64,000 bases of DNA, taken from the NCBI RefSeq assembly GCF_964355755.1, contig NC_092672.1, positions 29,756,501 to 29,820,500 on the forward strand, read 5' to 3'. Both the position numbers and the translations under genes were made by a program. The notes beneath the pieces are model-generated. The model was given only the letters and a program-made list of their open reading frames with translations, was not told the origin of the DNA and made no database searches. The DNA is from Antedon mediterranea. Taxonomy: Eukaryota; Echinodermata; Crinoidea; Comatulida; Antedonidae. Below are positions 17,749 through 64,000 of the stretch, piece by piece; the first letter of the stretch is position 1; every line of letters begins with the position of its first letter.

Positions 17749-18057
17749 ATGGACGACAAGAACAAACTTCGTCTGGACGGACATTACTGTGACGTCACTC
17801 TTATTGCAGACGGTAAACGACATCTCGCGCATAAGAATGTTTTAGTGGCGAAAAGTCCGTATTTTAAAGAGTTGTTTGAAGCCAAAGGTAACCAATACAA
17901 ATCGGAATTTAGGTTGATTGGTGTCCGCAGCTCAGCATTGTCTGTTGTTCTTAGTGTTGTGTACACTTCCAGTCTGAATGCTTCCGATGTGAGCGAACTT
18001 GACGACTTGCGGGAAACGCTTCGAACTGCGTACACTTTAGGTATAGAAGTAGTTAAT
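17749..18057 (+). CDS. kelch-like protein, exon 1 (BTB domain)
   Basis: This exon encodes about 103 residues starting MDDKNKLRLDGHYCDVTL, the canonical start of a KLHL BTB/POZ domain. HLAHKNVLVAKSPYFKELFE and the downstream YTSSLNAS segment follow. BTB domains dimerise and bind cullin-3. The ATG at 17,749 sits directly before the domain, as in short-N-terminus KLHL proteins, although a further upstream exon is possible. The BTB fold ends at GIEVVN, followed by a GT at 18,058 (GTCAGG, a weak donor); after it the frame becomes low-complexity and unlike KLHL. With the donor there, the phase is 0 and joins to the exon at 23,784. The intron is about 5.7 kb and filled with transposons. Confidence 0.85.
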
Positions 18058-19318: not shown

Positions 19319-19559
19319 CCAAAGAATCTAAGAAGTACATTAAAGTCACAGTCCGAAAAAGAGACTAACAATACTACTGAATGTTCCCAGGCCATAGATG
19401 ATGTATTAATTAATGATAACCACTCATATGTAATAAATAAAAGGAATAATACAATAACAGATATAAACCAAATAGTAAAAAAAGATCCTCATATATTTGA
19501 GGAACTAAATCAAAAGGGTTTTATATTTGCACATTTAAATATACGTAGCCTAGACTTAC

Positions 19560-23783: not shown

Positions 23784-25115
23784 TGTAAGAATTGTGTAGA
23801 TTATTTTTTGCTCACTAAAGAGTTCCACATGGACGATATTGAGTATATTGCCAAGAGTTTTGGTGAAGTCATTGATAGTAATCTCCATTTAAATCTGTCT
23901 TGCCAACAGATAATTCACTTTTTAAGTAGAGATGATCTATCGGCAAAGTCTGAGATTTCGATTTTTGAAGCTGTTATGGAATGGTTACGAAGCGATTGGC
24001 AAGACCGAAAAGACTACGCCCCTCTTATTATGACCCACATTCGTTTTCCGTTGATACATCCCAATGACATCGTAAACAAAGTCCAAGCTGAGGAAGCTTT
24101 AATGGACATACCAGAGTGTCGAACATTGATTACAGAGGCAATGTCATACCATTTGTTACCACACAATCAGCATTCCTTCCAAACTCTAACACGTGCAACA
24201 ACGGACGTATTTGTTGTCTTAGGTGGTGAGGATATGCAAGGGTTAACCAGTGAACAAACATACGTATGTGATATTGAGACAAACGTCTGGAAACCGTTCA
24301 CAGACATGCCAATTCGAAGACTCGATTTAGCTGTGGCCACCATGGATAATTTCTTGTACGTAGCTGGTGGCCAGTTCTCTGGTGATTCCTTAGGCATTGA
24401 CAGCATTGGCACGGTTCACCAGTATAATCCACGGTTTGATACATGGCGTCAACTCTGTCCTATGAAAAAGAGACGCTCGCTTTTCTCTTTAGATGGAATG
24501 AATACGTATCTGTATGCAGTTGGTGGGAAGAATACTCAAGGAGGATTGGCAAGCGTTGAAAGGTATGACAGTGGCACGGACTCTTGGGAGTACGTCGCAC
24601 CTCTGACGCTTCACACATTTGGGCATAGCAGCGCAGTTGTAGGCGGTAAACTTTTCATCACCGGCGGAGTCGTTGACGGTGGACATTTCAGCAATGCATT
24701 ACAAGTTTACGATCCAAACCATGATAAATGGACGTTTAAAGCGCCAATGTCTTCGACAAGAGCCTTCCATGTCATGTGTTCCGTGGGTAAGAAAATATAC
24801 GTCATAGGCGGCAACACGCGGGATAGTAAAAATCGACGAGTTGATTGTCGCGCTGTTGAATGTTACGATGCGAAAAATGAACAGTGGTCGACGTTAGCGC
24901 GTATGCCGATTGGGGTCAGTTTAGCAGGTGTGTGCGTTTATAGCAAATGCGTGTACGTTATTGGCGGATATACTGGCAAGTTTTCTGACAGACATTCTGA
25001 GGTTCAAATGTATGATATTGAAACCGACAAATGGAAAATTGTTTGTAATTTACCAGAGTGCGTAATCAGACACAGGTGTTGTATACTATCTGTACCACAA
25101 TCACGCTTACTTTGA
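23784..25115 (+). CDS. kelch-like protein, exon 2 (BACK + six Kelch repeats)
   Basis: About 443 codons. The first ~110 residues are a BACK domain (KSFGEVIDS, FLSRDDLSAKSE, AVMEWLRSD, HIRFPLIHP), linking BTB to the propeller. Six Kelch blades follow, each with a double glycine and a spaced Tyr/Trp: VVLGGEDMQG, YVAGGQFSG, YAVGGKNTQG, FITGGVVDGG, YVIGGNTRD and YVIGGYTGK. The best resemblance from memory is to KLHL9/13/26-type proteins, CUL3 substrate adaptors. The acceptor is placed at AG 23,782-23,783, because TAG there is an in-frame stop and the next codons (CKNCVDYF) match BACK. With exon 1 the protein is about 546 residues, some 15-25 short of the family at the BTB-BACK junction; a small exon may be missed. 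The frame is open to the TGA, so the gene looks functional. Confidence 0.9.
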   Translation, partial: CKNCVDYFLLTKEFHMDDIEYIAKSFGEVIDSNLHLNLSCQQIIHFLSRDDLSAKSEISIFEAVMEWLRSDWQDRKDYAPLIMTHIRFPLIHPNDIVNKVQAEEALMDIPECRTLITEAMSYHLLPHNQHSFQTLTRATTDVFVVLGGEDMQGLTSEQTYVCDIETNVWKPFTDMPIRRLDLAVATMDNFLYVAGGQFSGDSLGIDSIGTVHQYNPRFDTWRQLCPMKKRRSLFSLDGMNTYLYAVGGKNTQGGLASVERYDSGTDSWEYVAPLTLHTFGHSSAVVGGKLFITGGVVDGGHFSNALQVYDPNHDKWTFKAPMSSTRAFHVMCSVGKKIYVIGGNTRDSKNRRVDCRAVECYDAKNEQWSTLARMPIGVSLAGVCVYSKCVYVIGGYTGKFSDRHSEVQMYDIETDKWKIVCNLPECVIRHRCCILSVPQSRLL

Positions 25116-25499: not shown

Positions 25500-28400
25500 C
25501 TGAACTAAATGATTAAGTTTACAGTACTATAGATAAGAGAGAATTAAGAGAAGAGGACAGTTTGATGGATATCTGTGGATATTTCCAGCTTTTTATATTA
25601 TTTTTCTGGACTATACCTAGGCCTAGGCTAGGCATAGCCTCTGTGGCAACGGTGTCGACCCATGATATACACCAGGGAATAGAAGCCTCATACCCATTCT
25701 TCTCATTGCCCTTCTCTGGGCCTAGCCAGTTGACGTGCATGAATACTACGATGGATGTAGGATGTCGTTATTGTTACAAACATATTGAGAACACCCCGCT
25801 TATTTTATGTTCCAGCTGCCTCAATGAATATCATCAGCGTTGCCAGGGAGTGACAGATATTGACTTTAATGATATTATTTCATCAAGAAAAGAATGGATT
25901 TGTCTGAAATGTGTCCTTCCACATAATGCTTCGTTTTTTGATGGATCAGCTGGTACTTGCAGCAGTGAGTCTTCAAACAGTGTGGTTTCTCCCAGTACAC
26001 AACAACTTACTGGACTGCTGTATAACGCCAGAAGTGTCTGCAATAAATTAACTGAGTTGCAGCTTGTTGTGGATACAGAAAAACCTCACATCCTTGCGAT
26101 TACAGAAACGTGGCTCGGCAATGAAATCAATGATGCAGAAATAATTATAGAGAGTGGTTACCAGATATTCAGGAACGATCGAAATAGGCATGGTGGTGGA
26201 GTGATGCTGGTCATCAGTGATGCGTGTAAACCAACAACAACTGCGTTTAAACACAACAACCTGGAAATTGTATGGGCTGAGATTACATGTAAGCTTGGTA
26301 AGATCTTGATCGGATGCTTCTACCGCCCACCAAATGCACCTATGCTGTACACACAAAACTTTTTAAATGCCATGGAAGAAGTACTAGATAATAGTCATCA
26401 CTACAAAGCCATCATTCTTTTAGGGGATTTTAATATTCGTCACCAAAGACAATATCTTGTAAATAACTTTGAACATCTTATTTTTGACTCCATGGAGTCG
26501 CTTGATTTTGTACAAATGGTTAATTTTCATACAAGAATAGCTAACAATACTGCTGAAGGCAACACCTTGGACTTAATTTTTAGCAATAGGCCTGAGTTGT
26601 TCAATATTGAACAAATCGAAGGCCTGGGTAAAAGTGATCATGTGGGTGTGAAATTTAATATGAATGTAAAGTTAACTGGTTTTCGAAAACTACCAAATAG
26701 ATCAAAATTTCTGTACTCAAAACTTAACCCTAACCTATTACACGAAGAATTAGAATCTGCAGATTGGAATTCGTGTCTAGTTGTAGATGATGTTGATACA
26801 TCCTGGAAAAATTTTAGGGATATGCTTTTGAAAGTGTTTAATAAGATCGTACCTAAAGGCAAAGGTAGTGTTAAAAAAAGACCTCCGTGGATATCACAAG
26901 AGGTTGTCAGGTTAAGTCGAAAAAAGAAAAGAGCCTATAAAAAGGCTAAATCTAAACCAGAAAATGTTAATCTATGGGACAGGTATAAGGTAATTAGAAA
27001 TAATGTAAAATATATGTGTAAAAAGAGTTACTATGAATATGTAAAACAATTAGCAACAAACTCAAAAGACCAAAAACCTTTTTGGGCGTTCGTTAATGCT
27101 AAAAGACATAAATGTTTTCCAACAAGTTTTAAGTTTGATAACATCACAACAGATGATCCTAGTTTAATTGCTAATAAATTTAATACATTTTTTCATAGTA
27201 ACTTTTCTAAACCTGTACCCAATAATAACCAGATGATAGCTTCATTGGTTGATCCTCCTCTTTCTGATCTGCTGATCAATGAAGCAGATGTTAAATGTCT
27301 GATTACTTCATTAGATGGGAATAAATCCCCAGGGCCTGACGGTATCTCCCCTAAAATGCTTAAACTGTCATCTTTCACAATCATTGGTGTTTTGACTGAG
27401 ATATTTAAGATCTCAATTAAAACCGGTAAAGTCCCAGCTGACTGGAAAGTAGCCCATGTTGTACCAATACATAAATCAGGCCCTGGTGATAATGTTGTAA
27501 ACTATCGCCCCATCTCCCTGACGTCAGTGGTCGGGAAAATGCTTGAGCGCTTTATTGGAAAGCACATGGTTTCTCATGCTGATAAACTTGGCCTTTTGCC
27601 TTCCACACAACATGGTTTCTGTAACAAAAGATCGTGTGTAACACAGCTTGCCACAATTTACCACCAATGGGCTAAATGTTTAGATGTAAACAAACCACCA
27701 AGAGTTGATGCTGTGTTTTTAGATTGGTCCAAGGCTTTTGACAAGGTTTGTCATTCACTTCTCATTAATAAGCTACAAAAATATGGCTTTGCCGGTAAGC
27801 TCATGAGCTGGTTACAATCTTTTCTGATTAACCGTAGCCAAGCAGTGTTATTCAAAGGTTCACTTTCTGATTGGAAAGATGTATTATCGGGGGTACCTCA
27901 AGGTTCCGTGTTGGGACCTATTCTTTTTAATTTGTATACATGTGAGCTCCCATCAGCAGTTAATTCAAACATTGCATTATATGCAGATGATACTGTGTTG
28001 TTCAGAGTAATAAATAATCAAGATGATTGTTTGAAGCTTCAAGACGATCTAACTGCCATAGCCCTATGGGGCAATGATAATTATATGTCTCTAAATAACA
28101 GTAAATGTAAGGTTATGTCGATCTCTAGATCGAAAGTAAAACAGTATTTTCATTATAAAATAGATAATAAAGTACTAGAAAGTGTAACAGAATACAAGTA
28201 TCTTGGTGTTACCTTGTCTTCAGATTTGAAGTGGAATAAACACATCTCTCTGACTACTGGTAAATGCAATAAACTTGTAGGATTTATTAAGAGGTGTGTT
28301 AGAACCAATGATCAGACCGTTTTTCCTAAATTATTTAAGTCTATCATTAGGCCTGTAATTGAATACGCTTCACCTGTCTGGTTTCCATTTCTGCAAAGCA

Positions 28401-29003
28401 CCATCAATCAGATTGAATCTGTTCAGAGACGCTTTACACGATCATGCTTCCCACGTTTTTTTCACATGGATTATGACATGCGGCCGTCATACGAACAAAG
28501 GTTACGGACTCTCAAATTACCCACGATTTATAATAGACTTAAATTCATCCGTGTTAAATTTGTTGTGAAGTGCCTCTGTACAGATTTCCTAATTGATGGT
28601 GCTTTGCTACCTAAACCTGTTGAACGTAGAAGTGAGAAACTTGTTTTCAGACATGAGAAGTCTCGTACTAATGCTTTTTTTTATTCTGTTTTTATTTCAT
28701 TTCCACGGATGTGGGATGAGATTCCGGTATAAATCCGGTAAATAAAAAAAAATATAAATAAATAAATAAATAAATTCTATGTTACCGGGTTGTTAAATGT
28801 TTATCCTTGTTAATGTTATTTTGCCACCAGTGCTATCAGGAGAGTCTTTTATAGCGATATTTTTTGCTTTTTGACAATCCGCCAGGATAGTGTTCTGCGC
28901 TTTTTCTCTGCTTGTTGTTGTTCTTTGTAATTTTTGCTTTTTGTATTGTTTTTGCTTTATATTTTTTCTGGATAATAAATGAATATGAATATGAATATGA
29001 ATA
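25500..29003 (+). mobile_element. probably complete CR1-like LINE with PHD-like finger
   Basis: A single long open frame (25,565-28,732) is followed by a 3' UTR. That UTR has an (AAAT)n stretch at about 28,750-28,775 and a (GAATAT)n tail at 28,979-29,003, preceded by GGATAATAAA. The 5' boundary is uncertain and may lie just after the poly(A) tract. Compared with the other LINEs in the window, this one has no visible lesion in its coding frame and may be recent or still active. Confidence 0.8.
25565..28732 (+). CDS. PHD-like finger + endonuclease + reverse transcriptase
   Basis: An intact frame of about 1,055 codons from the first ATG; ATG 25,739 may be the real start. Near residues 62-120 is a PHD/RING-like zinc finger: CRYCYKHIENTPLILCSSCL, then EYHQRC and WICLKC, a C4-H-C3 spacing. 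An EEP endonuclease follows (LLYNARSVCNKL, AITETWLGN, CFYRPPN, ILLGDFNIRH, KSDHVGV), then reverse transcriptase (VVPIHKSGPGD, YRPISLTS, FLDWSKAFDKV, SGVPQGSVLGP, catalytic LYADDTVLF) and a C-terminal CR1-type region. PHD fingers are known in ORF1 of some CR1-like LINEs; here the finger is in the same frame as the enzyme. All catalytic motifs I can check are present. Confidence 0.9.
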   Translation: MDICGYFQLFILFFWTIPRPRLGIASVATVSTHDIHQGIEASYPFFSLPFSGPSQLTCMNTTMDVGCRYCYKHIENTPLILCSSCLNEYHQRCQGVTDIDFNDIISSRKEWICLKCVLPHNASFFDGSAGTCSSESSNSVVSPSTQQLTGLLYNARSVCNKLTELQLVVDTEKPHILAITETWLGNEINDAEIIIESGYQIFRNDRNRHGGGVMLVISDACKPTTTAFKHNNLEIVWAEITCKLGKILIGCFYRPPNAPMLYTQNFLNAMEEVLDNSHHYKAIILLGDFNIRHQRQYLVNNFEHLIFDSMESLDFVQMVNFHTRIANNTAEGNTLDLIFSNRPELFNIEQIEGLGKSDHVGVKFNMNVKLTGFRKLPNRSKFLYSKLNPNLLHEELESADWNSCLVVDDVDTSWKNFRDMLLKVFNKIVPKGKGSVKKRPPWISQEVVRLSRKKKRAYKKAKSKPENVNLWDRYKVIRNNVKYMCKKSYYEYVKQLATNSKDQKPFWAFVNAKRHKCFPTSFKFDNITTDDPSLIANKFNTFFHSNFSKPVPNNNQMIASLVDPPLSDLLINEADVKCLITSLDGNKSPGPDGISPKMLKLSSFTIIGVLTEIFKISIKTGKVPADWKVAHVVPIHKSGPGDNVVNYRPISLTSVVGKMLERFIGKHMVSHADKLGLLPSTQHGFCNKRSCVTQLATIYHQWAKCLDVNKPPRVDAVFLDWSKAFDKVCHSLLINKLQKYGFAGKLMSWLQSFLINRSQAVLFKGSLSDWKDVLSGVPQGSVLGPILFNLYTCELPSAVNSNIALYADDTVLFRVINNQDDCLKLQDDLTAIALWGNDNYMSLNNSKCKVMSISRSKVKQYFHYKIDNKVLESVTEYKYLGVTLSSDLKWNKHISLTTGKCNKLVGFIKRCVRTNDQTVFPKLFKSIIRPVIEYASPVWFPFLQSTINQIESVQRRFTRSCFPRFFHMDYDMRPSYEQRLRTLKLPTIYNRLKFIRVKFVVKCLCTDFLIDGALLPKPVERRSEKLVFRHEKSRTNAFFYSVFISFPRMWDEIPV

Positions 29004-37769: not shown

Positions 37770-40644
37770 TTATGCCAAAAAAGTTACTCCTCTATTTGAA
37801 CAGTCTCTCTTTATTTCACTAATTACCCCATCTGATAAATAGCATTCATGCATGTTAAGCAACCTTAGTTTAGGTAACATATTTAATAAAGAACGCAGTA
37901 AAGTAACATCAATGTCACTAAGATTATTACAACTGATATTGAAGTGACCTAATTTCAACTTAACTCCATTATCAGAACACTCTCTACTCATAGCATTCAG
38001 TATAGTACCTGATAGATTACAATTATGCATTTCAAGTGTAAGCGCATCATCATCACCACCATAATCATCATCATCATCATAATCATCATCATCATTATCA
38101 ATCATACTAAATAGATAACACAGTGATGTACCATCAATGTCACTAAGATTATTACCACTGATATTGAAGTGATATAATTGCAACTTAACTCCTTTATTAG
38201 AACATTCTCTACTCATAGCATTCATTACAGCACCTGATAGATTACAATCATGCATGTCAAGTGTACCCAGCCTAGTCATCATACTCAATAGATAACACAG
38301 TAATGCACCATCAATGTCACTAAGATTATTACCACTGATATTGAAGTGATCATTTAATGTCAACTTAGTTCCTTTATCAGAACACTCTCTACTCACAGCA
38401 TTCATTACAGCACCTGATAGATTACAATCATGCATGTCAAGTGTACCCTGCAAAGGCATCATACTCAATAGATAACACAGTGATGTACCATCAATGTCAC
38501 TAAGATTATTACCACTGATATTGAAGTGATTTAATCTCCACTTAACTCCATTATTAGAACACTCTCTACTCATAGCATTCATTACAGCACCTGATAGATT
38601 ACAATCATGCATGTCAAGTGTAATATACAAAGTCATACTCAATAGATAACACAGTGATGTACCATCAATGTCACTAAGATCATTACCACTGATATTGACA
38701 TCATGTAAACAAAACTTAACTCCTTTATCAGAACACTCTCTACTCATAGCATTCATTACAGCACCTGATAGATTACAATCATGCATGTCAAGTGTACGCG
38801 GCCTAATCATATTCAATAGATTACACAGTAATGCACCATCAATGTCACTAAGATTATTACCACTGATATTGATGTGATCTGATGTCCACTCAACTCCATT
38901 ATAAGAACACTCTCTAATCATAGCATTCATTACAGCACCTGATAGATTACAATCATGAAAGTCAAATCTAAGGTTTATACACTGACCAAACGTTGAAATA
39001 CATAGAATGTGTGTAAGAACCTTTCCTTTAGAATCAAATGATATTGTATTTAAAAAACTCCGAAAATTGTTAGTCAACGATATTTTATGAAATTCCCTCA
39101 GAATATTTATAAAATTTTTATCAACGTTTTCATCTTTGCTTACATGCTGAATGAACATTCTTAATGTATTTGAAATATCTTCCAAATGTTCTTTTATTTC
39201 TAAATTTGTATTCAATATGTGATTAAGCAATGTTTGTTCAACATTATCCATATGATGTTTTTTCACTAATGCTAAGTTATCATCAAAAGATCGATATGCT
39301 GCCAAATCATTTGTAATCCAATGATTTAAGAATGTTCCAGCATCAGCTCCAAGGAACCCAATGGCAAATTCTCTTGTTATTATGAAATACCAACTTCCTC
39401 GTATTTCTTTCCATTCCTTTTCATCTAATGGCGCAAGTAATGGGTTTTCCATAGATTCACTCTCACATAGTTTGTATAAATAAAATCCCACCAACGACTC
39501 AACTATCAATTTGTGTGGAGGCATATAATTCTCTTCAAAGCTAGACTTTGAAATTGGTGCATCTTTATAAACAAACCCAAGTTTCAGGGCAATATCAATC
39601 GTATTTTTGTCACCTGTAAGGCTTTTCTTGTTTATCGAAAGTTGATTTCTTTTTAAGTTACGATACATGCATTTTCCTAAACAAATCATAGCATTTACAT
39701 ACTCCTCTGGAGCATCATCAAATTTTGAAATCAAATGGTGTTGTTGTTGTTTTTTATTGAACTGATTTAAAATACTTCGAAATAGTTCTTTAAAAAGATC
39801 AGATTTATCGAGAGGAAGATTTTGGTTGTCCTCCCACATTATACAAATTGTGACAAGTAACATTGGATTTGTGGACATATCGCGTAATTCATGATGTTTT
39901 CTATATTCAATGTAGAGCTCATTAATTAGTGATTTTCCCAGGGCAGGTTTACCAAAATGCTTAAAATGCTTGTCAATATACTTTCTAATGTTTCTTTCCG
40001 TGAATCCTTTTACTCTTACGTGTACATTACACTCATTAATGAATGCACTTATGTTCTCTGTTCGCGAGGTCAGTATCACTACACTATTCTTTAATGTTTG
40101 CCCTCTGAATAGACAAATAAATTCTTCATTCTGAAATCGTAATTCATCGAATCCATCTAGCAACAATACAATGTTGCTATCATGTTTTAATATGAATTTT
40201 TTGATTACTTTGGAATCTTCTCCAAGATCAGTTTCCAGGTCAAATTCTTTCATATTAGTTTATCTACCATAAGATCAAAGATTCCCTTCCCTTCCTCTAA
40301 ATCTCTTATATTTAACAGAAATACAATTTTACCTTCAAATACATCAAATGATTTATCTGTACCTGCATTGTATGCTATGTGCCTTAATAGTGTAGTTTTA
40401 CCTATACCACCTTCACCGTCTATAAGGACTTTGCACGCATGTGTGGATTTGATGGTAGCTAACACATCTTTTAATGTTGTTGACTCACTCTTTTTTGTGT
40501 TTTTATTTCTCTTGAGTAGGTCCAACTCTGTGAATAGTTCAGAAATATCGACTTGGTAGGATTCATTCCATGTTGCTGGTGTAAACGTCTTGGCATTTTG
40601 CAGAAATGTCTGCTGTTTACTTAGTAGATATACTTTTATCTTTT
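37770..40644 (-). CDS. NLR receptor, exon 4 (NACHT + LRR), one frameshift
   Basis: About 957 codons on the minus strand. The acceptor is at AG 40,646-40,645 (ttatccaacag); phase 1 matches the upstream donors. Walker A GEGGIGKTTLL and Walker B VLLLDGFDEL, VVILTSRTEN and NPMLLVTICIMW define an NTP-binding NACHT domain. Six and a half double LRR units of 58-60 residues follow, each built on LDMHDCNLSGAVMNAMSREC plus FNISGNNLSDIDG, and end in a short cap (GVTFLA). NACHT-LRR proteins sense microbial or danger ligands and oligomerise. At 40,250-40,253 the frame shifts by one base between DLMVDKLI and KEFDLETD, in the middle of NACHT. As read the protein would stop there, so this is a pseudogene, an allele or an assembly error. 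Unit 5 carries an acidic insertion. Confidence 0.9.
38041..38104 (-). repeat. (ATC/ATA)n expansion encoding an Asp-rich loop in the LRRs
   Basis: On the minus strand GAT/GAC/TAT codons give a run of about 18 residues, mostly Asp with Tyr and Gly. It lies between the fifth and sixth LRR units, where the other units have none. The frame is kept. It would form an acidic loop on the solenoid. Confidence 0.85.
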
Positions 40645-41860
40645 CTGTTGGATAAAATGAAAGGTAAATAAAATAGGTGACACAACAAATGACATAATAA
40701 ATGATGACGACGACGACAATGATGACGGAACACATTAATTGTGCTTACGCCATAAACATACACGCGTGTGTTTCTTACTGTATATTGAAATTAAAATTAA
40801 TATTTTGCCTTGAGAACGAAAACAATAGTAAAATAAATCATGAAATAAAAGTTTTGTTTTCCTGAAGCTAAATTTATTGCAGTGGAAAGGTTATTAGTGT
40901 TTCTTTTTTTAAGAAGACGTGTAAAATACATTAATGGTCAGGAAATTATAATCAGTCTTGTACAAGTCACAATAAAAATAACTTTTTTCTCAAAATGCGA
41001 GATTTGATATCCTTAACTATAAAATCCAAATGTATCCGAAAAAAAGGTTCCTGTTTTAGGATACTGTATACTGCAACAAATTATAAAAACTCTCTGGCAT
41101 TTGTTGACAGGTATCACAATTTAAGGTCTATGTCATCTGAATATGTACAGATAAGGGTTTACGAAACACAAGGCCATTCTGTGGTTCATTTTAAGGCCAA
41201 CCTGTGGTTCGAGGGCGCTAGACATGTCGGTCAGCTGTGGTTCCAGGGCGCTAGACATAACTTTTCTTCAGCTTTTTTCACATAATTTTATTTTACCTGA
41301 AACATTAAAAGTTATAACACTTTACCTACTAATTTTTCCAAAATATTTTGGTATGAATAAATGTGCGAATGATAATTAATGTCTGTGAAGTACCTAGCTT
41401 TACGAACGTTATAACACTTTACCTACTTAATTCAATTCAATTCAATTCAATTCAAGGAACATTTATTCACGTCCAAAAGACAAAAGTAACAAAAACAAAA
41501 TGGCAAGTGATAAAACAAGAAAATGGACGAAGGCAAATCCCAAAAAGATTACAATCTTGTGACGGGATTGCCTTTACAAAATATTTAAATTAAGAGAAGA
41601 AAAAAAAAAAAAAAAAAAAATAAAGAAAATAAATTAAACAATAAAGAAATACAAAATATATATAAAACCAGTAGATAAAAGTTGGAATAAAAAATAAAAA
41701 AAGAACAGAAAAAAGTACAGCTGCATGGCATATAGCGAATAAGATAGCAAGTCACGGAACATGGAAACAACGACCATATCAAACAGATCGATCAGTAATG
41801 AGACAAAAGGTAATTTTTTATGTTATTATTGAATGAATAGCGGTTAGCAGCACAGGAAAT

Positions 41861-42547
41861 TCAGGGGGGTAAATTGTTAAACAATAGAGGTCCAGCATAT
41901 CTAATGCTATGTTGAAAATAATTGGTGTTATGGTTAGGGATATATATGTTATTTCTTGTTCTAGTATAATATTTATGAACGGTATTATTAGGAGCGAAAA
42001 GGTCGTTTAGATGGCAAGGGAGAAGTGAGTGAGTGGCCAAAAAAACAAAGACACCTTGCTGGGATAGGTTAATGTCCGAGAGTTTGAGAAGATTGAGTTT
42101 GGAGAATAAGTGGGAGGAATGTGACAGTGGATGAGCGCCAGATATAGTCCTGATAGCTTTTTTTTGTAGGATAGAGAGTTTAATGATGTTTGAAGGGTAA
42201 GTGTTGGCCCAGACAATGTTACCATAGCTCAAATAAGGAAGGATGAGTGTGCAATAAAGGGTCCTGAGAATATTAGTTGGGAGGAAGGAAGAAAGCCTAG
42301 AAATGATCCCAAGGTTCTTAGACACTTTGTTCTCAATTTCTTGGATATGGGGTTTCCATGAGAGAGAGTTGTCGATGATAATGCCAAGAAATTTATTATA
42401 CTTAACAGAGGGGATTTCTTGATTATCAATAACGACTTTAAGTGGGGACACATCAATACCTCTAGTCAACTGCGGGGTTCCGAATAGGATGTAACTACAT
42501 TTATTATGATTGAGGGAGAGTTTGTTGGCAATAAAGTACTGGGACAA
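41861..42547 (-). pseudogene. LINE reverse transcriptase C-terminus
   Basis: On the minus strand this continues the RT: FIANKLSLNHNKCSYILFG, KFLGIIIDNSLSWKPHI, ILPYLSYGNIVWANTYP and a C-terminal GPLLFNNLPP typical of CR1/L2-group LINEs. A short gap with a stop (42,548-42,583) separates it from the YADD-bearing frame. Confidence 0.85.
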
Positions 42548-42583
42548 GGGGATAACGTTGGTATTAAAAGTGTCAAAAAGAGT

Positions 42584-43773
42584 TTAGATATTTTTGTTGG
42601 CATGAAAAACTGTAGTGTCATCAGCATATAGAAAACAATTTAGCAGGTTTGAGGTTCGGTGGATATCATTAATGTAAAAGGTGAACAGAAGCGGGCCAAG
42701 TAAGGAGCCCTGGGGAACGCCACAGGTGATAGGGCAAAAATTAGAAATAGAGTTAAAATATTTAGTACATTGGGAGCGGTTAGTGAGATAGCTTTTGAAA
42801 ACGTTTAAGGCGGGTCCTCGGATTCCATAGTGAGACAATTTAAAAAGAAGAATATTATGATCAATGGTGTCGAAAGCCTTGGAAAGGTCGATGAAAAGTC
42901 CGATTCCAAATTGACGATTTTCGAATGCATGAATAATTTTGTTAGTGAGGTCGATCAAAGCCATGGAGGTGTTATGTCCTTTTCTAAAGCCATATTGTCT
43001 CTTGAAGAGGATGTTATGTTTGCTGATAAATGAAAATGTTCTATCATAGATAATTCTTTCCAAGGCTTTCGAAAAGATTGACAGGATGGAGATAGGACGA
43101 TAGTTAGAAATGTTGGATTTGGGGCCAGATTTGTAAACAGGGGTAACGCGCGCCAGCTTCAACCTGTTCGGAAAAACACCTTTGCAGAGGACAAGATTAA
43201 AAATGTGACACAAGGGAAGGGAGATAAGGTTGATAACATGTTTAATGGCTTTAGTATGGAAATCATCAGTACCAGGAGCTTTATTGTTATCGAAGGAGGA
43301 GATAATTCTTATGATATCCTCTTCTAGGACGGTGGTTAAGAACATTGATTTCGGATTTGGTTGAGGAAGAAATTCTTTGAAAGAAACATTGCTGGGAGGG
43401 ATTTTGTTAGCAAGGGAGGGATTTTGTTAGCAAGGGAGGGTCCGATTTCGACAAAAAAATCATTAAATGCTTTAGAAATAATGACGGGGTCTTTAGTTGG
43501 TACTCCGTTACAGTTGACAGGGGTATTGCTTTTGTGTTGGTTTCGGTTTTTATGGTTCAATAAAGAGTTAATTGATTTCCAGGTTGCCTTAATATCATTT
43601 TTTTGCTTGGTGAAAATATCATGAAAGTGGATTCTTTTGGCAATTTTGATAGTGGAGTTAAGTTTATTACGATATCGTTTATATTTGATTTCATTGGCAG
43701 GAGAAGGGCGGTGAAGAAATTTTGCATAGAGTTTATGTTTATACTTTATTGATTTTAGCAGTCCATTTGACAT
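42584..43773 (-). pseudogene. LINE reverse transcriptase, frameshifted
   Basis: Two overlapping frames read in order on the minus strand. 43,773-43,336 is the connector (KSIKYKHKLYAKFL). 43,345-42,584 is the reverse transcriptase: [49 protein letters not shown] and the catalytic [10 protein letters not shown] frameshift separates the frames near 43,340. The RT frame stops soon after YADD. Confidence 0.85.
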
Positions 43774-44896
43774 CCAAGATTTAATTTTTTTGTTCTTGTT
43801 TGTATTGTTCCTTTTCAGTAACGGGAAGTGTTGGTCATAAAGGGCTTTAAGTGTGTTATCAAAGAGGTCATAAGCAAAGTCAGGATCATTAGAATTAAGG
43901 ATATCAAACCAAGTTTGATTAGAGACATCATGGTAAAAGTTGTTAAGAGACGTATTGTTAATCTGTCTGAGAGATGGGATCTCTTCATTGTTTGAGCTAG
44001 TGGCAAAACTATCAGAGAGGTTTGAAATATTAAAAACAGGGAGATGATCAGAGATATCACTATATAGCAGACCACTTATATGAGAACAATCAAATTGATT
44101 TGTAATAATATTATCTAATAATGAGGCTGTGGAATTTGTTATTCTGGATGGTCTGTCGATAAGTGGAAGATAGTGATTGCTAAACAGTGTGTTAATGAAT
44201 TTTATTTTCTTTTGTTAAATTGGAAAGGTCAATGTCAGGTTCAATTAAAAATTGATTTGGGTCAGAGGAGGGGGGTCTATATACAGTACCCACAATAATG
44301 TTTTTGTGATGAGGCCGTTTAATTTCAATAAAGATGGATTCGCAGTTGGAAGAGTGTGGGTGTAGGTCACTTCTAATGGAGAATTGTAGAGAATCAAGGA
44401 TATACATGGCGACTCCTCCACCGTCTTTATGGGTTCTGTGGTTAGAGACAAAATTATAATTTGGGAGTTGGACCAAAGGATTATCGTACTTGAGCCAAGT
44501 TTCACTTACTCCAATAATATCGAAAGGCAGATTAATGGATGATAGGAGTTGTTTAATTTCATCAATGTGCTTGAGGATGCTTCTAGAGTTGAAATGAATA
44601 GTGGAGAAGCAATCAGAAAGTGAGTCAACAGGAAATTCATTAGGATCATAATATTGAGAGGGACTGTGGTTGCTGTTGGTGAAAAAATTAGAGTCGGGAT
44701 CAATGTTAGATGTAGAATTACCAAGGTTCCTGTTAATGTTACGGTTGTCTGAATAGCTGGGCAAGGGGAAGAAGTTTATGTTTGATAATCGGTCGTGGTA
44801 CGATGTTCCGTCATCTGCGTTAAGGTTGTACATCAAGTAAAAATGAAAATATAAAAAGAGAAATCTGTTCAGTGAATTTAAAAGGACATAAGACAA
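43774..44896 (-). pseudogene. LINE endonuclease region with internal deletion
   Basis: On the minus strand the frame from 44,896 encodes an EEP endonuclease: IHFNSRSILKHIDEIKQLL, GVSETWLK, DGGGVAMYI and TVYRPPSSDPNQF. Next should come the catalytic GDFN motif. Instead FLIE is joined to PDIDLSNLTKENK, so about 20 residues including GDFN are missing. After a frameshift near 44,195 the SDISDHLPVF motif and the connector (44,190-43,815) follow in other frames. Endonuclease activity would be lost. Confidence 0.75.
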
Positions 44897-45528
44897 AATG
44901 AACCCTGTTTGTCCTCCGACATTATACCGATCATGAGCGAATCAGTAGGCATATGCCTAATATTTTTGTTTATTTTCTCCCCCTTTGTTAAAGAAGTATG
45001 TACTCAATATCATTTCTTTAGTTTTATTTTTAACAGAGTATTTGGGATTTTAATGTATTGGTTTTATAGAGCGTGTTCCAAATATTTGCTCCGTGAATGA
45101 ATATGGATCTATGACTTATTGCAAGTCTGGAGAATGGTATGCACATTTTCGTTGAATTTCTAAGAGTTATTTTGCGCGTTCACTTTTTTTACTTTGATCA
45201 AGGATTTCGCACAAGGGAGGGGGTAATTGTCGAAGATCACATTGAGTCATGAAACATATTGCTTGTAACTTATTTAAATCAACATTGTGAGTAGGTTAAA
45301 TTATTTAAATAAGGGACGTGATCTAGATGAGTTCGTTATTATTCTAACTATTAATTTTTGTAATGTAGTTTCTCAATATGTGTTGGATATTCATTTCCCC
45401 ATACAATTAGTTAACAGACAAGTTTAAAGTTATACCAGTTAAAAATGTCTTACATGATTGTTTAGAATTGTATAAGTATAGTCAACAAGATCCCATGAAT
45501 AAATACTAGGTTAATATTTGTTTTTTAC

Positions 45529-45588
45529 CTTCTGGTTGACGTTTGGAAGCAGATACTACACATTTGTCATCATCACCCTCCCTATTTC
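45529..45588 (-). CDS. NLR receptor, mini-exon 3 (60 nt)
   Basis: The minus strand shows acceptor TTTTTTAAG before GAAATAGGG and donor CCAGAAG|GTAAAA. The exon is exactly 60 nt, phase 1 on both sides. It encodes a hydrophilic linker (N-REGDDDK...SASKRQPE) homologous to mini-exon 2 in length, phase and the SxxRxPEG end. It can be included or skipped without changing frame. Confidence 0.7.
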
Positions 45589-46281
45589 CTTAAAAAATAA
45601 AATAAAACCTTTATCATAATATTTGTAAATGTTTACACAATTGACAAATAATTAATATAGATGGTTTGAAAATTGAAAAGAAGATTGAATAAATTGTTAG
45701 AGATAGAGTATACGATGTTATGATTATGTGTAGATATGTGATTTGTTCTTTTTATTCAAATGATGTTATGTATTTAATAAATTTGATATATCAATTAATT
45801 AAATTATCGTACATTGCATAGGCATATTATGCGATAAATATTATTTAATAAATTTTTTTGATATATTATTATTATTATAATATTAATAAAAAGATATTTG
45901 TTAGTATAAATTTAAAAATATAGATATAAAGAAGAAAAGCAAAGAGATTATGGAGCGGCTGTACCAGAATATACAACACTAAGTATTGTAAAGTTAATAT
46001 ATTACAAATTTAGGCGATCTTGTCAAAGGTCTAAACTTTCCATTATTTAAAAGTCGAAGATAGCCAGGTCTCGGGGCCATTCTATTGTCACCACAGATTG
46101 ATATCTTCATTAGTACTTCTATGAATGGATGATTAGGTGGGAACACGAACGCTAGTTGATCATACCCAGTACCGTTTTGATCATACGATTAATCGGGAAA
46201 CCACCTCACGACGTTGTAGTTCGTAATTCAAGTCAAGTCAAGGTTTGAAAATTAAAATTAAATAATTATAGTTTTCTATGC

Positions 46282-46370
46282 ACCACTGCGGGCTCGTTAA
46301 TTTCTAAGATGTACAATTTTGTCGAAGAACATTGTAAAATACATCTTCTTTTTTTTCTTATAAACGTTGA
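46282..46370 (-). pseudogene. decayed duplicate of the NLR exon 1 tail, in intron 2
   Basis: The plus-strand text CACTGCG...ATGTACAATTTTGTCGAAG and ...AAAATACATCTTC parallels the end of exon 1 at 46,687-46,775 (CACTGCG...ATGCACAATTTGTCGAAG, CAAATACATCTTTC). On the minus strand it still reads KKDVF..LRQ. The splice donor present at 46,673 is not conserved here, so it is probably not used. It lies between mini-exons 2 and 3, as expected if the exon tail and a mini-exon were duplicated together. Confidence 0.6.
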
Positions 46371-46434
46371 AATGGATATTTGCTAAAAAAATCAAAATGT
46401 TTTAACATTCATATAAATATCGGTTCACCTTTAC

Positions 46435-46494
46435 CTTCTGGTCGTCTGTTAGAACCTGATGCTTTACTATCGTCATATTCATCTTTCCTACGTT
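46435..46494 (-). CDS. NLR receptor, mini-exon 2 (60 nt)
   Basis: The minus strand shows acceptor TTTTTTATAG before AACGTAGG and donor CCAGAAG|GTAAAGG. The exon is 60 nt, phase 1 at both ends. It encodes the hydrophilic linker RRKDEYDDSKASGSNRRPE between the DED and NACHT parts. Confidence 0.7.
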
Positions 46495-46673
46495 CTATAA
46501 AAAATGTTTAAAAACAAATTATAATATAACACATACGAGTAAATCTGCTTTTAAAATACAACTTAAAAACAATATATCTATTTTCCAAATTAATGTAAAA
46601 AACTGTTAGTTGTGATGGTTTGAGGATTATAATTTATAAAGTAAAAACAAAATAAATATCACATGTTGTATAC

Positions 46674-47238
46674 CTTCGTGACTTCCACTGCGTTGAGGTA
46701 CATTACTATGATGCACAATTTGTCGAAGATCATCAAATACATCTTTCTTGTCTTGTTGTTTCGATAAACATTGGCCAGTTTCCAATTTGAATGTTACATC
46801 CCAAATGTTGGTGTCTTCGTACATTGCCAGATTATAATGAGAGATAACCCTCTTTAACGCATCTGGTCCAACATTTCGCAAATCTTTAAACATTTGTTTT
46901 CTTTCTGATGATATTTTTTCTTCACCGGTATTTTCAATATTATTGTCTCTAATATACTGGACTACACAATCTTCAGCTTTCTTTAATTGACATAATTTGG
47001 AAATATCTAATAATAGGTTAACATTATTAGGTGCGATAACGCCAGTGTCTTCGAGATGATTAAATAGATCATTTCCAATGGCATTTGGTTCTGTAAGGTC
47101 TCCGATAGGTATGTGGTCGAATAAGATAAACTTCAACCAACGCAACCTATTACCGCAAAAGAATGTGCTGAGATCAGACTTCAATTTAGTGAACTCTGGA
47201 TTAGTTTCAGACGCTGCCATTTAAGCACTTTCTGGTTC
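46674..47238 (-). CDS. NLR receptor, exon 1 (DED-like domain)
   Basis: On the minus strand the ATG at 47,220 begins MAASETNPEFTKLKSDLSTF, with an in-frame TAA directly before it. An acceptor (ctattttgcag, AG 47,240-47,239) 18 nt upstream suggests a non-coding first exon beyond. Residues about 12-85 resemble a death-effector domain: LRWLKFILFDHIPIGDL, then NDLFNHLEDTGVI and LLLDISKLCQL, with the RxDL motif altered. A second helical part follows (KQMFKDLRNVGPDALKRVI), then KKDVFDDLRQIV. The exon ends at CACGAAG|GTATAC (donor 46,673), phase 1. DED-type domains recruit signalling partners; DED/DEATH-NACHT-LRR is a known echinoderm NLR layout. The DED call is from pattern and could instead be another death-fold domain. 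Confidence 0.75.
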
Positions 47239-47289
47239 CTGCAAAATAGAGTGAGTTTTTTAAATAACATTACATAAGTCATTTTTATC

Positions 47290-48141
47290 TTCATTATTTA
47301 GTTTAAAATTGCCGAGTCCACCCACTTTTCAAAAGGAAAGATAAGTGTGACGTCACCAACTATAGACCAATCAGCATTTTAAGTGTTTTGTCAAAAGTTC
47401 TTGAAAGAGCAGTTTATGTTCAAATCGAAAAGTACCTTAAAGATAATAACATAATGTTCGAATTTCAGTCAGGATTTATAAAACATTTTTCTACCGACTC
47501 TTGTTTAATCCATATTAATGATTATATTAGAAATCAAATGTCAATTGGCAATTAAATTGGCGTTGTATCTTTAGATTTATTTGCAAAAAGCATTTGACAC
47601 AGTTGACCATGGTATATTGATCGAAAAACTAAAGGCAATTGGGATTGGACCAATAGATTGGTTCAAATCATATCTTAAGAATAGGCAACAATTAGTATAT
47701 ACAAATAAGGTAGAATCTAAGCCACTTGGAATTTCTCATGGTGTGCCTCAAGGAAGTATATTGGGGCCTCTATTATTTCTATGCTATGTTAACGATATGA
47801 AAATAAGTGTAAATTGTAAGTTGATTTTATACGCTGACGACAGCGTTCTTTTAGTATCTGGAAAGAACCCATGTGTAATAGCCTCAAGACTAAGTTCTTC
47901 AGAATTGTCAGCCTGTGTAATAAATGGCTAATTGACAACAAGTTATCCCTCCATATGGGAAAAACTGAGGCCATGTTATTTGGAACCAAACATAAAATGA
48001 AAATGGTCAGGGATTTTAAAGTATACTGTGATGAAATCCTTATAAAGACAGTGTCAACAATCAAATATTTAGGTGTAACACTTGATGAAAATCTCTCAGG
48101 TGAACAAATATTAATCCAAAGTATAAAATGTATAAATGGTA
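47290..48141 (+). mobile_element. CR1/L2-like LINE (A), 5' part, interrupted
   Basis: 5'-truncated within the [22 protein letters not shown] at about 47,360, then a stop near 47,553 and a frameshift, QKAFDTVDHGILIEKL, SHGVPQGSILGPLLFL and the catalytic LYADDSVLL. The RT thumb (KWLIDNKLSL, IKYLGVTLDE) follows in another frame. It is cut at 48,141 by a second LINE and resumes at 51,101. It lies just upstream of the NLR gene, in the opposite orientation. Confidence 0.85.
47581..47931 (+). pseudogene. LINE (A) reverse transcriptase core fragment
   Basis: A 116-codon frame with KAFDTVDHGIL, HGVPQGSILGPLL and ILYADDSVLLVSGKN, that is RT motifs 3-5 with the catalytic aspartates. The N-terminal RT lies in another frame upstream, and the C-terminal part continues in a third frame from about 47,871. 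Two frameshifts make it non-functional. Confidence 0.85.
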
Positions 48142-49664
48142 TAGATAACAGCATAAGTATTATTGGAAAGTTTGGAGAGGTTTCTGGATTAAAATTAAAT
48201 AAGAATAAAACAAATGCTTTTTGGCTTGGCAGTTTAAGAGACTGCAAGGACACACATGGTAACATTTCTTGGACATCCACACCAATTCGGATATTAGGTA
48301 TCTATGTTGGACATGATAAGGAATATTGTTATCAAAAGAACTGGAAAGAAAAAATAGACGCATTAGAAAATACCCTAAAAACATGGGAGAAAAGACACCT
48401 CACTTTTTTTGGAAGAATTACTATTGTAAAAACATTAGCGCTCTCAAAAATTATATACAATTCCTGCATTTTGCTAGTACCAGAAAAAATAATAAAAGAG
48501 GTGGATAAATTAATTTTTAAATTCATTTGGGAAACTAAGAAAGAGAAAATAAAAAGAAAAACCATGTGTGCCAATTACAGTCAAGGTGGTCTAAAAATGG
48601 TAGAATTCAGATCTCAGGTAATATCTTTCCAAGTTAAATGGTACAGGAGACTGTATGAAAACGATGATGCCAAATGGAAATATTTACCTACATTTTATAT
48701 AGAAAAGATAGGCCCAAAATCATTAACCTCAAATTTATCAAAAGTTCCGTGTAATATATCCGTACCACCATTTTACCTCTCAGTTATTAAGTCTATAGCA
48801 GTAGCTAATGCTTGTAATAATAGATTAAATAAGAAACCAATAAGCTATGATGACATTATTAATCAATCATTATGGGGTAATGAGTTTATATGTATTAAAA
48901 AGAAGCCGTTATATAACTGTAACTGGATTAGTTCAGGGTTTTTAAAAATATATGATGTAATAAGTAATAATGTGTTTAAGCCTGCGATAGAGATAAAAAG
49001 AAGGTTAAGATGTACACAAAATTGGATCAGTGAATATTCATGTATATTGAAAGCCATTCCAAAAGAATGGAAATGTATTTTAAAATCAACACATGACATT
49101 AATGTAAATGATATACCTATTACAAACAATAAGGTCTTAAATATGACGTCTAGACAATTATATAGATTCATAATAGATGCTCAATATATTACACCTACGG
49201 CACAGGTTAAGTGGGAATCCATATTTGGTAATATGCCATGGACAAAAATATGGGTTAAAAAAGTTTCTGGTCTTAAAGAAAAAAAACTGGCACATTTTAA
49301 TTTTAAATTGTTGCACAGAATATTGCCAACAAATGAAAGATTACATAGGTGGAGACTTGTAAATTCCCCATGTTGTGACACTTGCAATGTTATTGAGAAT
49401 GATAAACATATGTTAGTAGAGTGCATAACAGTAAAATGTTTATGGAGAGAGATAAACGAAATAATTAGAGCAGTAAGCATACATATTCCTGTTTTTTCTT
49501 TCAAAAGACTTTTATTTGAAACTGACAATAATTACGTAAATAAATTATACACTTTAGGAGCATTTTGTATTTATAAAGTAAAGATATTAAGTTTATTGGA
49601 AAAAGAAAAAAAAATCAATCTCCTACAAATGTTTAAATCTGAAAAAAAGATAAGAAATATGTAA
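47871..49664 (+). pseudogene. chimeric LINE frame: CR1/L2-type RT thumb fused to L1/Tx1-type RT end
   Basis: This 597-codon frame looks like one protein but joins two transposons. Residues 1-90 (KWLIDNKLSLHMGKTEAMLF, IKYLGVTLDENLSGE) belong to LINE A. From 48,142 the reading changes to an L1/Tx1-like C-terminus: FGEVSGLKLNKNKTNAFWLG, LTFFGRITIVKTLALSK and a CCHC motif CDTC...H....C near residue 525. The boundary coincides with a 16-bp target duplication, so the fusion is accidental. It would not be a host gene. Confidence 0.85.
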
Positions 49665-60559: not shown

Positions 60560-61331
60560 TTAATATAGTTTATTTGTATATATTATGTGTTTATAAGCTA
60601 ACAGTGGGGCCTCCCACACTCACAGTAATAAAGTTTATCTGTATATACAGTATGTTTATATTATATAACAGTATCAACACTCACAGTAAGAAATTTGCGA
60701 TTCAAATGGCGATCAAAAGTACAGTGGTTAATAGGTATACAGTATTGTATAGTAGTATTGCAATACTATATCTTAAGGCATTGTGCCCATACATTTACCT
60801 ACTTCCTCCATGTTAAACCTACATGGTTAAACCAAATAATGTGTTCCATTCATCGCAAATCAATAAATTTGTATAAACGTATATTAAATCAATCAAAATA
60901 GTATTTTTTAAAGAAAATCGGCTGTCTTCAACCTTGTGATGCTGTACTTGAGCTCTTCAGGTGGTTAAAATCAGTACCGAAAGTACGAACCAACTTTATA
61001 TACCATCGAGTAAACATTCTAGAAATTACGCGCGATTTACCGATTTTTGCCCTTACGTAAATTTATATTTAGATTAACAATGTCCTCCAGTGTACTACCA
61101 TTACAGTAACTCTTCCCTGGTACTACAATGGGTACTGACATTATTGACGCATTCTCGAGGGTAATCCATTATTTAACATTCGCTCAAAAAAGATAGGTAG
61201 GCCTATCTGAAGCAAGATGCAAGAAGACATATTACATTCTGTCTTTAATGCATTACACTCATTGTCTCGTACTCCAGATAGGATATCATATAATATTGTT
61301 TTAATGTTGTATTTAGTACGTTTAAATATTG
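60560..61331. other. no gene seen
   Basis: AT-rich intergenic sequence leading to the minisatellite. It holds a 19-bp hAT-end-like word at 61,101-61,119 between near-identical direct repeats GTACTACCA and GTACTACAA (see findings). Confidence 0.4.
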
Positions 61332-64000
61332 GTGTCGAGTTGTATTCTATGTTATACCATTGCTCACATACAGGTGTCGAGTTGTATTCTATGTTATACC
61401 ATTGCTCACATACAGGTTTCGAGTTGTATTTTATGTTATACCATTGCTCACATACAGGTGTCGAGTTGTATTCTATGTTATACCATTACTCACATACAGG
61501 TGTCGAGTTGTATTCTATGTCATACCATTGCTAACATACAGGTGTCGAGTTGTATTTTATGTCATACCATTGCTCACATACAGGTGTCGAGTTGTATTCT
61601 ATGTCATACCATTGCTCACATACAGGTGTCGAGTTGTATTTTATGTCATACCATTGCTCACATACAGGTGTCGAGTTGTATTTTATGTCATACCATTGCT
61701 CACATACAGGTGTCGAGTTGTATTCTATGTCATACCATTGCTCACATACAGGTGTCGAGTTGTATTCTATGTTATACCATTGCTCACATACAGGTGTCGA
61801 GTTGTATTCTATGTTATACCATTGCTCACATACAGGTGTCAAGTTGTATTTTATGTCATACCATTGCTCACATACAGGTGTCGAGTTGTATTCTATGTCA
61901 TACCATTGCTCACATACAGGTGTCGAGTTGTATTCTATGTCATACCATTGTTCACATACAGGTGTCAAGTTGTATTCTATGTCATACCATTGCTCACATA
62001 CAGGTGTCGAGTTGTATTCTATGTCATACCATTGCTCACATACAGGTGTCGAGTTGTATTCTATGTCATACCATTGCTCACATACAGGTGTCGAGTTGTA
62101 TTCTATGTCATACCATTGTTCACATACAGGTTTCGAGTTGTATTTTATGTCATACCATTGCTCACATACAGGTGTCAAGTTGTATTCTATGTCATACCAT
62201 TGCTCACATACAGGTGTCGAGTTGTATTCTATGTCATACCATTGTTCACATACAGGTGTGGAGTTGTATTCTATGTCATACCATTGTTCACATACAGGTG
62301 TGGAGTTGTATTCTATGTTATACCATTGCTCACATACAGGTGTGGAGTTGTATTCTATGTTATACCATTGCTCACATACAGGTGTCAAGTTGTATTTTAT
62401 GTCATACCATTGCTCACATACAGGTGTCGAGTTGTATTCTATGTCATACCATTGTTCACATACAGGTGTCGAGTTGTATTCTATGTTATACCATTGCTCA
62501 CATACAGGTGTCGAGTTGTATTTTATGTTATACCATTGCTCACATACAGGTGTCAAGTTGTATTCTATGTTATACCATTGCTCACATACAGGTGTCGAGT
62601 TGTATTCTATGTCATACAATTGCTCACATACAGGTGTCGAGTTGTATTCTATGTCATACAATTGCTCACATATAGGTGTGGAGTTGTATTCTATGTTATA
62701 CCATTGCTCACATACAGGTGTCGAGTTGTATTTTATGTTATACCATTGCTCACATACAGGTGTCGAGTTATATTCTATGTTATACCATTGTTCACATACA
62801 GGTGTCAAGTTGTATTTTATGTCATACCATTGCTCACATACAGGTGTAAAGTTGTATTCTATGTCATACCATTGCTCACATACAGGTGTCGAGTTGTATT
62901 CTATGTCATACCATTGCTCACATACAGGTGTCGAGTTGTAATTTATGTCATACCATTGCTCACATACAGGTGTCGAGTTGTATTCTATGTCATACCATTG
63001 TTCACATACAGGTGTGGAGTTGTATTCTATGTTATACCATTGCTCACATCCAGGTGTCGAGTTGTATTCTATGTTATACCATTGCTCACATACAGGTGTC
63101 GAGTTGTATTCTATGTTATACCATTGCTCACATACAGGTGTCGAGTTGTATTCTATGTTATACCATTGCTCACATACAAGTTTCGAGTTGTATTCTATGT
63201 CATACCATTGTTCACATACAGGTGTCGAGTTGTAATTTATGTCATACAATTGCTCACATACAGGTGTCGAGTTGTATTCTATGTTATACCATTGCTCATA
63301 TACAGGTGTCGAGTTGTATTTTATGTTATACCATTGTTCACATACAGGTGTCGAGTTGTATTCTATGTTATACCATTGCTCACATACAGGTGTCGAGTTG
63401 TATTTTATGTTATACCATTGCTCACATACAGGTGTCGAGTTGTATTCTATGTTATACCATTGCTCACATACAGGTGTCGAGTTGTATTCTATGTTATACC
63501 ATTGCTCATATACAGGTGTCGAGTTGTATTCTATGTCATACCATTGTTCACATACAGGTGTCAAGTTGTATTTTATGTCATACCATTGCTCACATACAGG
63601 TGTAGAGTTGTATTCTATGTCATACCATTGCTCACATACAGGTGTTGAGTTGTATTCTATGTCATACCATTGCTCACATACAGGTGTCGAGTTGTATTCT
63701 ATGTTATACCATTGTTCACATACAGGTGTCGAGTTGTATTCTATGTCATACCATTGTTCACATACAGGTGTCGAGTTGTATTTTGTGTCATACCATTGCT
63801 CACATACAGGTGTCCAGTTGTATTCTATGTTATACTATTGTTCACAAACAGGTGTCAAGTTGTATTTTATGTCATACCATTGCTCACATACAGGTGTCGA
63901 GTTGTATTCTATGTTATACCATTGCTCACATACAGGTGTCGAGTTGTATTCTATGTTATACCATTGCTCACATACAGGTGTCGAGTTGTATTCTATGTTA
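61332..64000 (+). repeat. 42-bp minisatellite, ~63 copies, continues past the window
   Basis: The unit GTGTCGAGTTGTATTCTATG + TTATACCATTGCTCACATAC + AG repeats at exactly 42 bp, with no insertion or deletion noticed in 2.67 kb. Variation is limited to a few positions, mostly transitions: CGA/CAA/GGA near the start, TTC/TTT, GTTATA/GTCATA and GCTC/GTTC. Because 42 is a multiple of 3 and the unit lacks stops in several frames, 14-residue periodic frames of up to about 760 codons stay open on both strands. These match no family and I do not call them genes. Confidence 0.95.

Follow-up and report, generated by a model that had tools for sequence, protein, structure and literature searches.

Short phase-1 exons, probably coding, in a modular slot between the DED-like and NACHT-LRR exons of an NLR family in the crinoid Antedon mediterranea

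The stretch of DNA analysed here, referred to as the window, comprises 64,000 nucleotides (nt) from Antedon mediterranea (NC_092672.1, positions 29,756,501 to 29,820,500). It carries an NLR gene on the minus strand in which two short exons, called mini-exons A and B, are placed between a DED-like first exon and a combined NACHT-LRR exon. The gene model was rebuilt directly from the raw window sequence and contains the following exons:

47238-46674, minus strand: exon 1, DED-like, 182 codons plus 1 nt, ends in phase 1
46494-46435, minus strand: hydrophilic mini-exon A of 60 nt, phase 1-1, ERRKDEYDDSKASGSNRRPEG
45588-45529, minus strand: mini-exon B, likewise 60 nt and phase 1-1, homologue of A
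40644-37770, minus strand: NACHT-LRR exon, entered in phase 1 and closed by the stop codon

Exon 1 is preceded by the acceptor TTTTGCAG (acceptor position 47239). Its start codon is the ATG at 47220, immediately preceded by an in-frame TAA, and the coding length of 547 nt ends at the donor GAAG/GTATAC after 46674. Mini-exon A is found in the splice context TTTTTTATAG/...GAAG/GTAAAG and encodes the peptide E-RRKDEYDDSKASGSNRRPE-G (frame 0 of A is open too), and mini-exon B is found in the context TTTTTTAAG/...GAAG/GTAAAA and encodes G-NREGDDDKCVVSASKRQPE-G. The acceptor of the NACHT exon is ATCCAACAG, directly before 40644, and the first two bases of this exon complete the split codon. The donors of A and B score 8.0 and 8.3, while the exon 1 donor is weaker (5.0). 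The exon coordinates, the 60-nt lengths, the splice sites and the use of phase 1 throughout are as stated in an earlier reading made from the letters of the sequence alone (the sequence-only reading). This reading had also claimed that the mini-exons can be skipped without a change of frame and, indeed, both are phase 1-1 and all four combinations (A and B, A only, B only, neither) are in frame up to the NACHT exon. With good splice sites and a shared phase, isoforms formed by skipping are thus possible, the symmetric phase allowing this without proving it. A weaker phase-1 candidate of 30 nt, encoding GKILILISIY or similar (window ~40779-40808, donor score 5.7), scored below the threshold for counting; it is present at the corresponding place, a short distance upstream of NACHT, in the window, L001, L002 and L004.

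When it comes to the domain content, both halves of the NACHT domain match PF05729 (31.7 and 35.0 bits, cut-off 26.7), the domain being interrupted by a frame break that is treated below. C-terminal to NACHT there are leucine-rich repeats above the cut-offs (LRR_1 35.3 bits, LRR_4 34.2 bits). Among PDB sequences the NACHT-LRR part matches the entries 5irm, 5irn and 5irl, listed as "Uncharacterized protein", which we take to be NOD2. The label DED-NACHT given by the sequence-only reading thus stands for the NACHT and LRR parts, while the DED match of exon 1 (PF01335, E 5.7e-5) reaches 23.7 bits and lies below the curated Pfam cut-off of 35.9. A PF01335 match at E<=0.01 was found in eight of 11 aligned exon-1 relatives, the window included. 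A profile of exon 1 ranked a caspase-8 chimera among the PDB sequences at no better than E 0.6, below a glutathione S-transferase that is unrelated, and exon 1 alone retrieved no DED from the same sequences. When exon 1 was modelled with AlphaFold2 from the single sequence, the quality was insufficient for use (predicted local distance difference test score 39.8).

The two mini-exons are related to each other, as had been proposed. An ungapped comparison gives 39 of 60 identical bases, and when A was compared with the 5,831 60-mers of the interval from exon 1 to NACHT, only the position of B scored 39, the next best scoring 30. By blastn A and B are 71% identical over 76 bp, both splice sites included (E 1.4e-4), and the same match is found in the paralogue L002 (E 4e-5). 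The intron after A contains a further remnant:

46347-46300, minus strand: decayed copy of the 3' end of exon 1

This remnant is 81% identical to the exon 1 of the same gene over 48 bp (E 1.3e-7) and is also present in L002 and L010, which suggests that the duplicated unit took in part of exon 1. After B only 13 bases match exactly (E 0.01), and a match of this length was not counted. The same duplication process is seen on a larger scale in L010 (C1:2295425-2299915), which consists of four tandem 1,315-bp units of exon 1, A and B. No NACHT match is listed there in the genome NACHT search, and L010 may be a DED-only array or an assembly feature. In the loci searched with tblastn at E<=1, both A and B were found in L001, L002 and the four L010 units, A also in L003 and L005, and B also in L007; neither was found in any other of these loci. 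The A and B sequences as such are therefore confined to near relatives. Among these, B is 60 nt in the window, 45 nt in L005 and 42 nt in L003, that is, the lengths differ by whole codons.

The slot itself is found far more widely. A genome search gave 150 scored exon-1 matches, from 376 candidates, and 130 NACHT matches. Pairing used 125 of the former and 118 of the latter rows and resulted in 49 pairs with a gap below 15 kb. Five of these were excluded, the gap being too large or exon 1 being common to another NACHT, and three more were left out, leaving a survey set of 41 DED-NACHT intervals (the window and 40 paralogues; L010 is not among them). DED exons resembling exon 1 are more numerous than NACHT exons in the genome, at 376 versus 141 first-look candidates by rough count. 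By eye, no NACHT-like frame of at least 120 amino acids (aa) lies within 5-6 kb of L077 (C4:17.0 Mb), L078 (C3:23.2 Mb) or L079 (C4:30.7 Mb), the last of which contains two DED exons.

A phase-1 donor follows exon 1 in 37 of the 41 loci, and a candidate acceptor in phase 1 precedes NACHT in all 41, although some score weakly. The intervals were scanned for phase 1-1 cassettes of 24-150 nt, and the controls were run at identical thresholds. The sense strand gave 60 cassettes and the antisense strand four, and at least one cassette was found in 35 loci. The rest of the window, with the gene and a terminal tandem repeat excluded, gave eight calls in 103 kb of strand, so that the density is 0.46 cassettes per kb as compared to a background of 0.08. 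Open cassettes of 24-120 nt with strong sites, entered in phase 1, were distributed 54/6/5 by length modulo 3 on the sense strand and 4/4/4 on the antisense strand. The nominal binomial p for this excess is 2e-16, but the paralogues are related and overlapping alternatives were counted, and the scan statistics are thus not independent. A raw comparison of phases on the sense strand (thresholds 2/6.5) gave 49 calls in phase 1, 33 in phase 0 and eight in phase 2. Only three of the phase-0 and one of the phase-2 calls do not overlap a phase-1 call, and most of them are therefore the same or overlapping intervals that are open in a second frame.

The number, length and sequence of the cassettes vary between genes. 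The scan gave no cassette in six loci, one in 19, two in ten, three in four, and four and five in one locus each. Two linker exons are found in the window, L001, L002, L003 and L005, none or one in L004, L008 and L015, four in L011 and five in L022. The comparison of linker exon number between paralogous NLRs that the sequence-only reading had suggested as a check reveals differences. The clade of the window (window, L001, L002, L003, L005 and L010) combines a 60-nt A with a B of 60, 45 or 42 nt. In L011 and L016 the cassettes are repeats ending in SET, L020, L022 and L036 contain 45-48-nt repeats encoding D.PGTSKQ, and L033 and L037 contain 45-nt repeats. The mean hydropathy is negative for 53 of the 60 cassettes. 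A similar pair of cassettes within the gene was found in eight of the 16 loci with two or more calls, and cassette-bearing blocks have been duplicated within L022 (618 bp, 87% identity), L011 (465 bp, 77%) and L016 (473 bp, 84%). L035 contains an 803-bp duplication in the linker (96%). In L007 a minisatellite at 871-2732, with units of ~52 bp that are 92-98% identical, fills most of the DED-NACHT interval.

One cluster differs in the nature of its last cassette. The C9 cluster (C9:22.62-22.95 Mb) comprises 22 loci, namely L023, L027-L029, L039, L040 and L042-L057, and here the last cassette before NACHT is often strongly hydrophobic, for instance ALAMVFAFIVVISAVILSYLFHVFANRFSDCELTE in L045 and L047. 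A test for transmembrane (TM)-like exons was performed on 76 loci, the 22 of the cluster and 54 others. The strict rule combined splice scores and phase 1-1 with a 17-residue Kyte-Doolittle mean of at least 2.0 in the last 1.1-1.2 kb before NACHT. Such an exon was found in 13 of the 22 cluster loci and in one of the 54 others (L041, likewise on C9; Fisher p 4e-8), and the same rule gave no TM-like exon in the other phases or on the other strand of the cluster. Weaker candidates in seven more cluster loci (L023, L053, L056, L027, L039, L046 and L052) bring the number to 20 of 22, those of L039 and L046 being short hydrophobic stretches; L044 and L057 have neither a strict nor a weaker candidate. 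A TM-type hit in phase 0 in L002 was taken to be a poly-isoleucine repeat frame and rejected. A short hydrophilic, mostly basic candidate mini-exon is located 120-220 bp upstream of the TM-like exon in six of 16 cluster loci (L042, L043, L045, L047, L048 and L052). Exon 1 has been paired with a NACHT exon in L023, L027, L028, L029, L039 and L040, and no exon-1 donor was found in L039. If spliced in, the cassette of this cluster probably confers membrane anchoring.

The evidence for the exon structure comprises the splice signals and their phases, homology and duplication, recurrence across the family, and the TM-like variant. Taken together, we consider it likely that A and B are coding exons in a modular linker slot between the DED-like and NACHT-LRR exons of an NLR family. 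Since exon 1 and the NACHT exon both border the slot in phase 1, the frame is kept whenever a phase 1-1 exon with a length divisible by three is gained, duplicated, lost or skipped. The shared phase would thereby make the interval a place where frame-preserving exons may be copied or lost. Short hydrophilic exons have been multiplied by intragenic duplication in several genes, so that the spacer varies from gene to gene, and in one cluster on C9 a TM-like exon is found in the slot in addition to them or in their place. The most likely effect would be a tuning of the tether on which the death-fold domain sits above the NACHT oligomer, in length, in charge and in some genes in membrane attachment. 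Most of this tuning would come from differences fixed between paralogues, with exon skipping as a possible further source. Given how NLRs generally work, a change in the tether would be expected to alter the assembly of the death-domain platform.

Several points weigh against this interpretation. Six of the 41 loci lack a cassette and 19 have only one, and eight of the 16 loci with two or more calls do not contain a similar pair. The splice matrices were self-written and the thresholds were set after a first look at the data, and the antisense count implies some four false positives among the 60 calls. Use of the cassettes in mRNA, their function and their alternative splicing are matters that we infer from genomic DNA. 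Selection on A and B is weak. For distant copies of A the proportions of synonymous (pS) and nonsynonymous (pN) differences are 0.36-0.45 and 0.22-0.30, for B compared to L007 they are 0.28-0.43 and 0.29-0.37, and the differences between close copies of A and B are mostly replacements. This fits a loosely constrained linker, but also relaxed constraint. Finally, the window copy carries a broken NACHT frame, and in its closest NACHT relative (98% identity, C3:29571886) the frame is open for no more than 225 aa.

The break, which the sequence-only reading overlooked when it described an NLR gene, leaves the assignment as a NACHT-LRR gene with a DED-like first exon standing:

40252-40250, minus strand: premature TGA between the P-loop part and the remainder of NACHT, the consequence of a one-base length difference

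As assembled, the NACHT-LRR exon consists of two frames, the first ending at this stop and the second, which covers the remainder of the exon, being open to 37770. Just before the TGA the window is one base shorter than eight aligned paralogues, and the break is absent from all eight. All four splice forms terminate at the TGA, at codon 354 with both mini-exons, 334 with either A or B only, and 314 with none, and the isoforms of the gene as assembled would therefore be truncated. Probable causes are that the window copy has recently become a pseudogene, that it is a broken allele, or that the assembly contains an error here. That the gene is a dead copy, with mini-exons that are relics and a finding that concerns a pseudogene only, is a possibility to which we give an even chance, and it is compatible with the interpretation for the family. 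Besides the one-base difference with its early stop and the short open frame of the 98% relative, it is favoured by an insertion in intron 3:

44941-41440, minus strand (same strand as the gene): decayed non-LTR (long terminal repeat) element of the long interspersed nuclear element (LINE) type, with endonuclease/reverse transcriptase-like frames; limits and type judged by eye

It is further favoured by the neighbouring paralogue L001 (C3:29754929-29755366), which has an in-frame TAG in exon 1. The NACHT-LRR frame of L001 is open, and the lesions are thus scattered among the copies of the cluster. On the other hand, a single lesion was seen across exon 1, A, B and the ~958 codons of the last exon of the window gene. 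Two NACHT relatives, 95% and 96% identical, have open frames of 1,307 and 1,230 codons, respectively. The same A and B exons are borne by L002, in which the NACHT frame is open over 1,230 aa, and the near relative L003 also has an open NACHT frame. The family-wide trait would persist even if the window copy were dead.

A second alternative is that the mini-exons are constitutive, being present in every transcript and giving each gene a fixed linker and no isoforms. We rate this slightly below an even chance. The good donors of A and B, as compared to the weaker donor of exon 1, agree with it, and differences between paralogues suffice to explain the variation in number. Symmetric 1-1 phase permits skipping without proving it. 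Alternative splicing is possible for every symmetric cassette, and its actual use has, judging from the sequence, about the same chance of being real as not. A third alternative, by which A and B would be AG...GT intervals that arose by chance in AT-rich introns, is very improbable. Short exons are easily invented and a second frame of A is open, but the antisense, modulo-3 and background controls speak strongly against this explanation, and among the paralogues the splice sites are conserved and the lengths change by whole codons.

If the modular linker slot is accepted, it might act as a plug-in port of the NLR repertoire, in which hydrophilic cassettes lengthen the tether, the TM cassette converts a cytosolic DED-NACHT-LRR receptor into a membrane-anchored one and skipping of this one exon releases a soluble form from the same gene, a proposal that we regard as tentative and somewhat more doubtful than constitutive use. 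The findings point to the tether between the death-fold and NACHT domains as a module that evolves fast within a large family of invertebrate NLRs. Linker length, and possibly location in the cell, could change without breaking the protein, and one symmetric exon would provide a simple genetic route between soluble and membrane-attached receptors.

The closest precedent is the zebrafish NLR-B30.2 family, in which the genes of groups 2-4 are described as having several peptide repeats of ~30 aa N-terminal to the big NACHT exon (PMC4852459). These peptides are encoded by one exon each, are heavily duplicated in some groups and have been shuffled between genes (PMC4852459). Both cases thus concern a large NLR family with N-terminal peptide units, one per exon, before NACHT. 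The likeness is one of organisation, and the words "phase" and "splice" are absent from the zebrafish NLR text (PMC4852459). The Antedon units are mostly 15-23 aa and are located between the DED-like exon and the combined NACHT-LRR exon, and the TM-like exon in the slot is a feature of one Antedon cluster that is unlike the zebrafish family. The zebrafish genes also contain Fisna and B30.2. Neither model was matched at E<=1 when exon 1 and both NACHT-LRR frames of the window gene, down to 37770, were scanned against Pfam, and the gene is therefore not placed in the fish family.

Human NLRs are reported to have frame-preserving LRR exon modules, and skipping of exon 5 in NLRP3 gives isoforms with altered activity (PMC6642158). 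The likeness here is that repeated symmetric exons are a precondition for in-frame alternative splicing. However, the human modules encode LRRs, and most non-LRR exons are described as shifting the frame if skipped (PMC6642158), while in the Antedon genes the LRRs are encoded within the NACHT exon and it is the linker that is modular.

Membrane NLRs are described from other invertebrates. AjNLRC4 and AjNLR-new of the sea cucumber Apostichopus japonicus contain NACHT and transmembrane segments, but they carry Ig domains (PMC13133943), while those C9 loci for which an exon 1 was detected combine this DED-like exon with NACHT and with a TM-like exon in phase 1-1. Putative membrane-bound NLRs with predicted TM segments are also described from the sponges Dysidea avara and Amphimedon; the passages concerned describe no exon cassette and lack the words "exon" and "linker" (PMC12909245). 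Among the open-access papers retrieved on this theme, no title or abstract opening describes a linker or TM cassette between DED and NACHT, which does not show that none has been published. Peptide-repeat exons of NLRs were already known, and the Antedon genes add to them the linker exon arrays in a DED-like NLR family and the TM-like exon in the same slot of one cluster.

The assembly has 18 contigs, 11 of which appear to be large (C6 being inferred) and to account for nearly all of the 354 Mb. On C2, twelve matches to Antp-like homeodomains are located between 7.83 and 8.21 Mb. Of nine homeodomains that were read by eye, one resembles deuterostome Hox9/10, and the flanking motifs of Lox5 and Ubx/Abd-A are found in none, which makes an echinoderm, perhaps a crinoid, plausible. 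A search for COX1, intended for a test of the phylum by the mitochondrial code, gave no match.

Several other features of the window were noted by eye. Frames of LINE-type endonuclease/reverse transcriptase are found in both orientations at 19554-21758, 25517-28732, 41861-44941 and 47838-49664, one of them just upstream of the NLR gene on the opposite strand. The tandem repeat at 61294-63834 is open in several frames on both strands, with a unit of ~14 residues such as YRCRVVFYVIPLLT, and is probably a satellite and not a gene. Pieces of a BTB-Kelch-like gene are located at 17710-18186 and 23784-25115.

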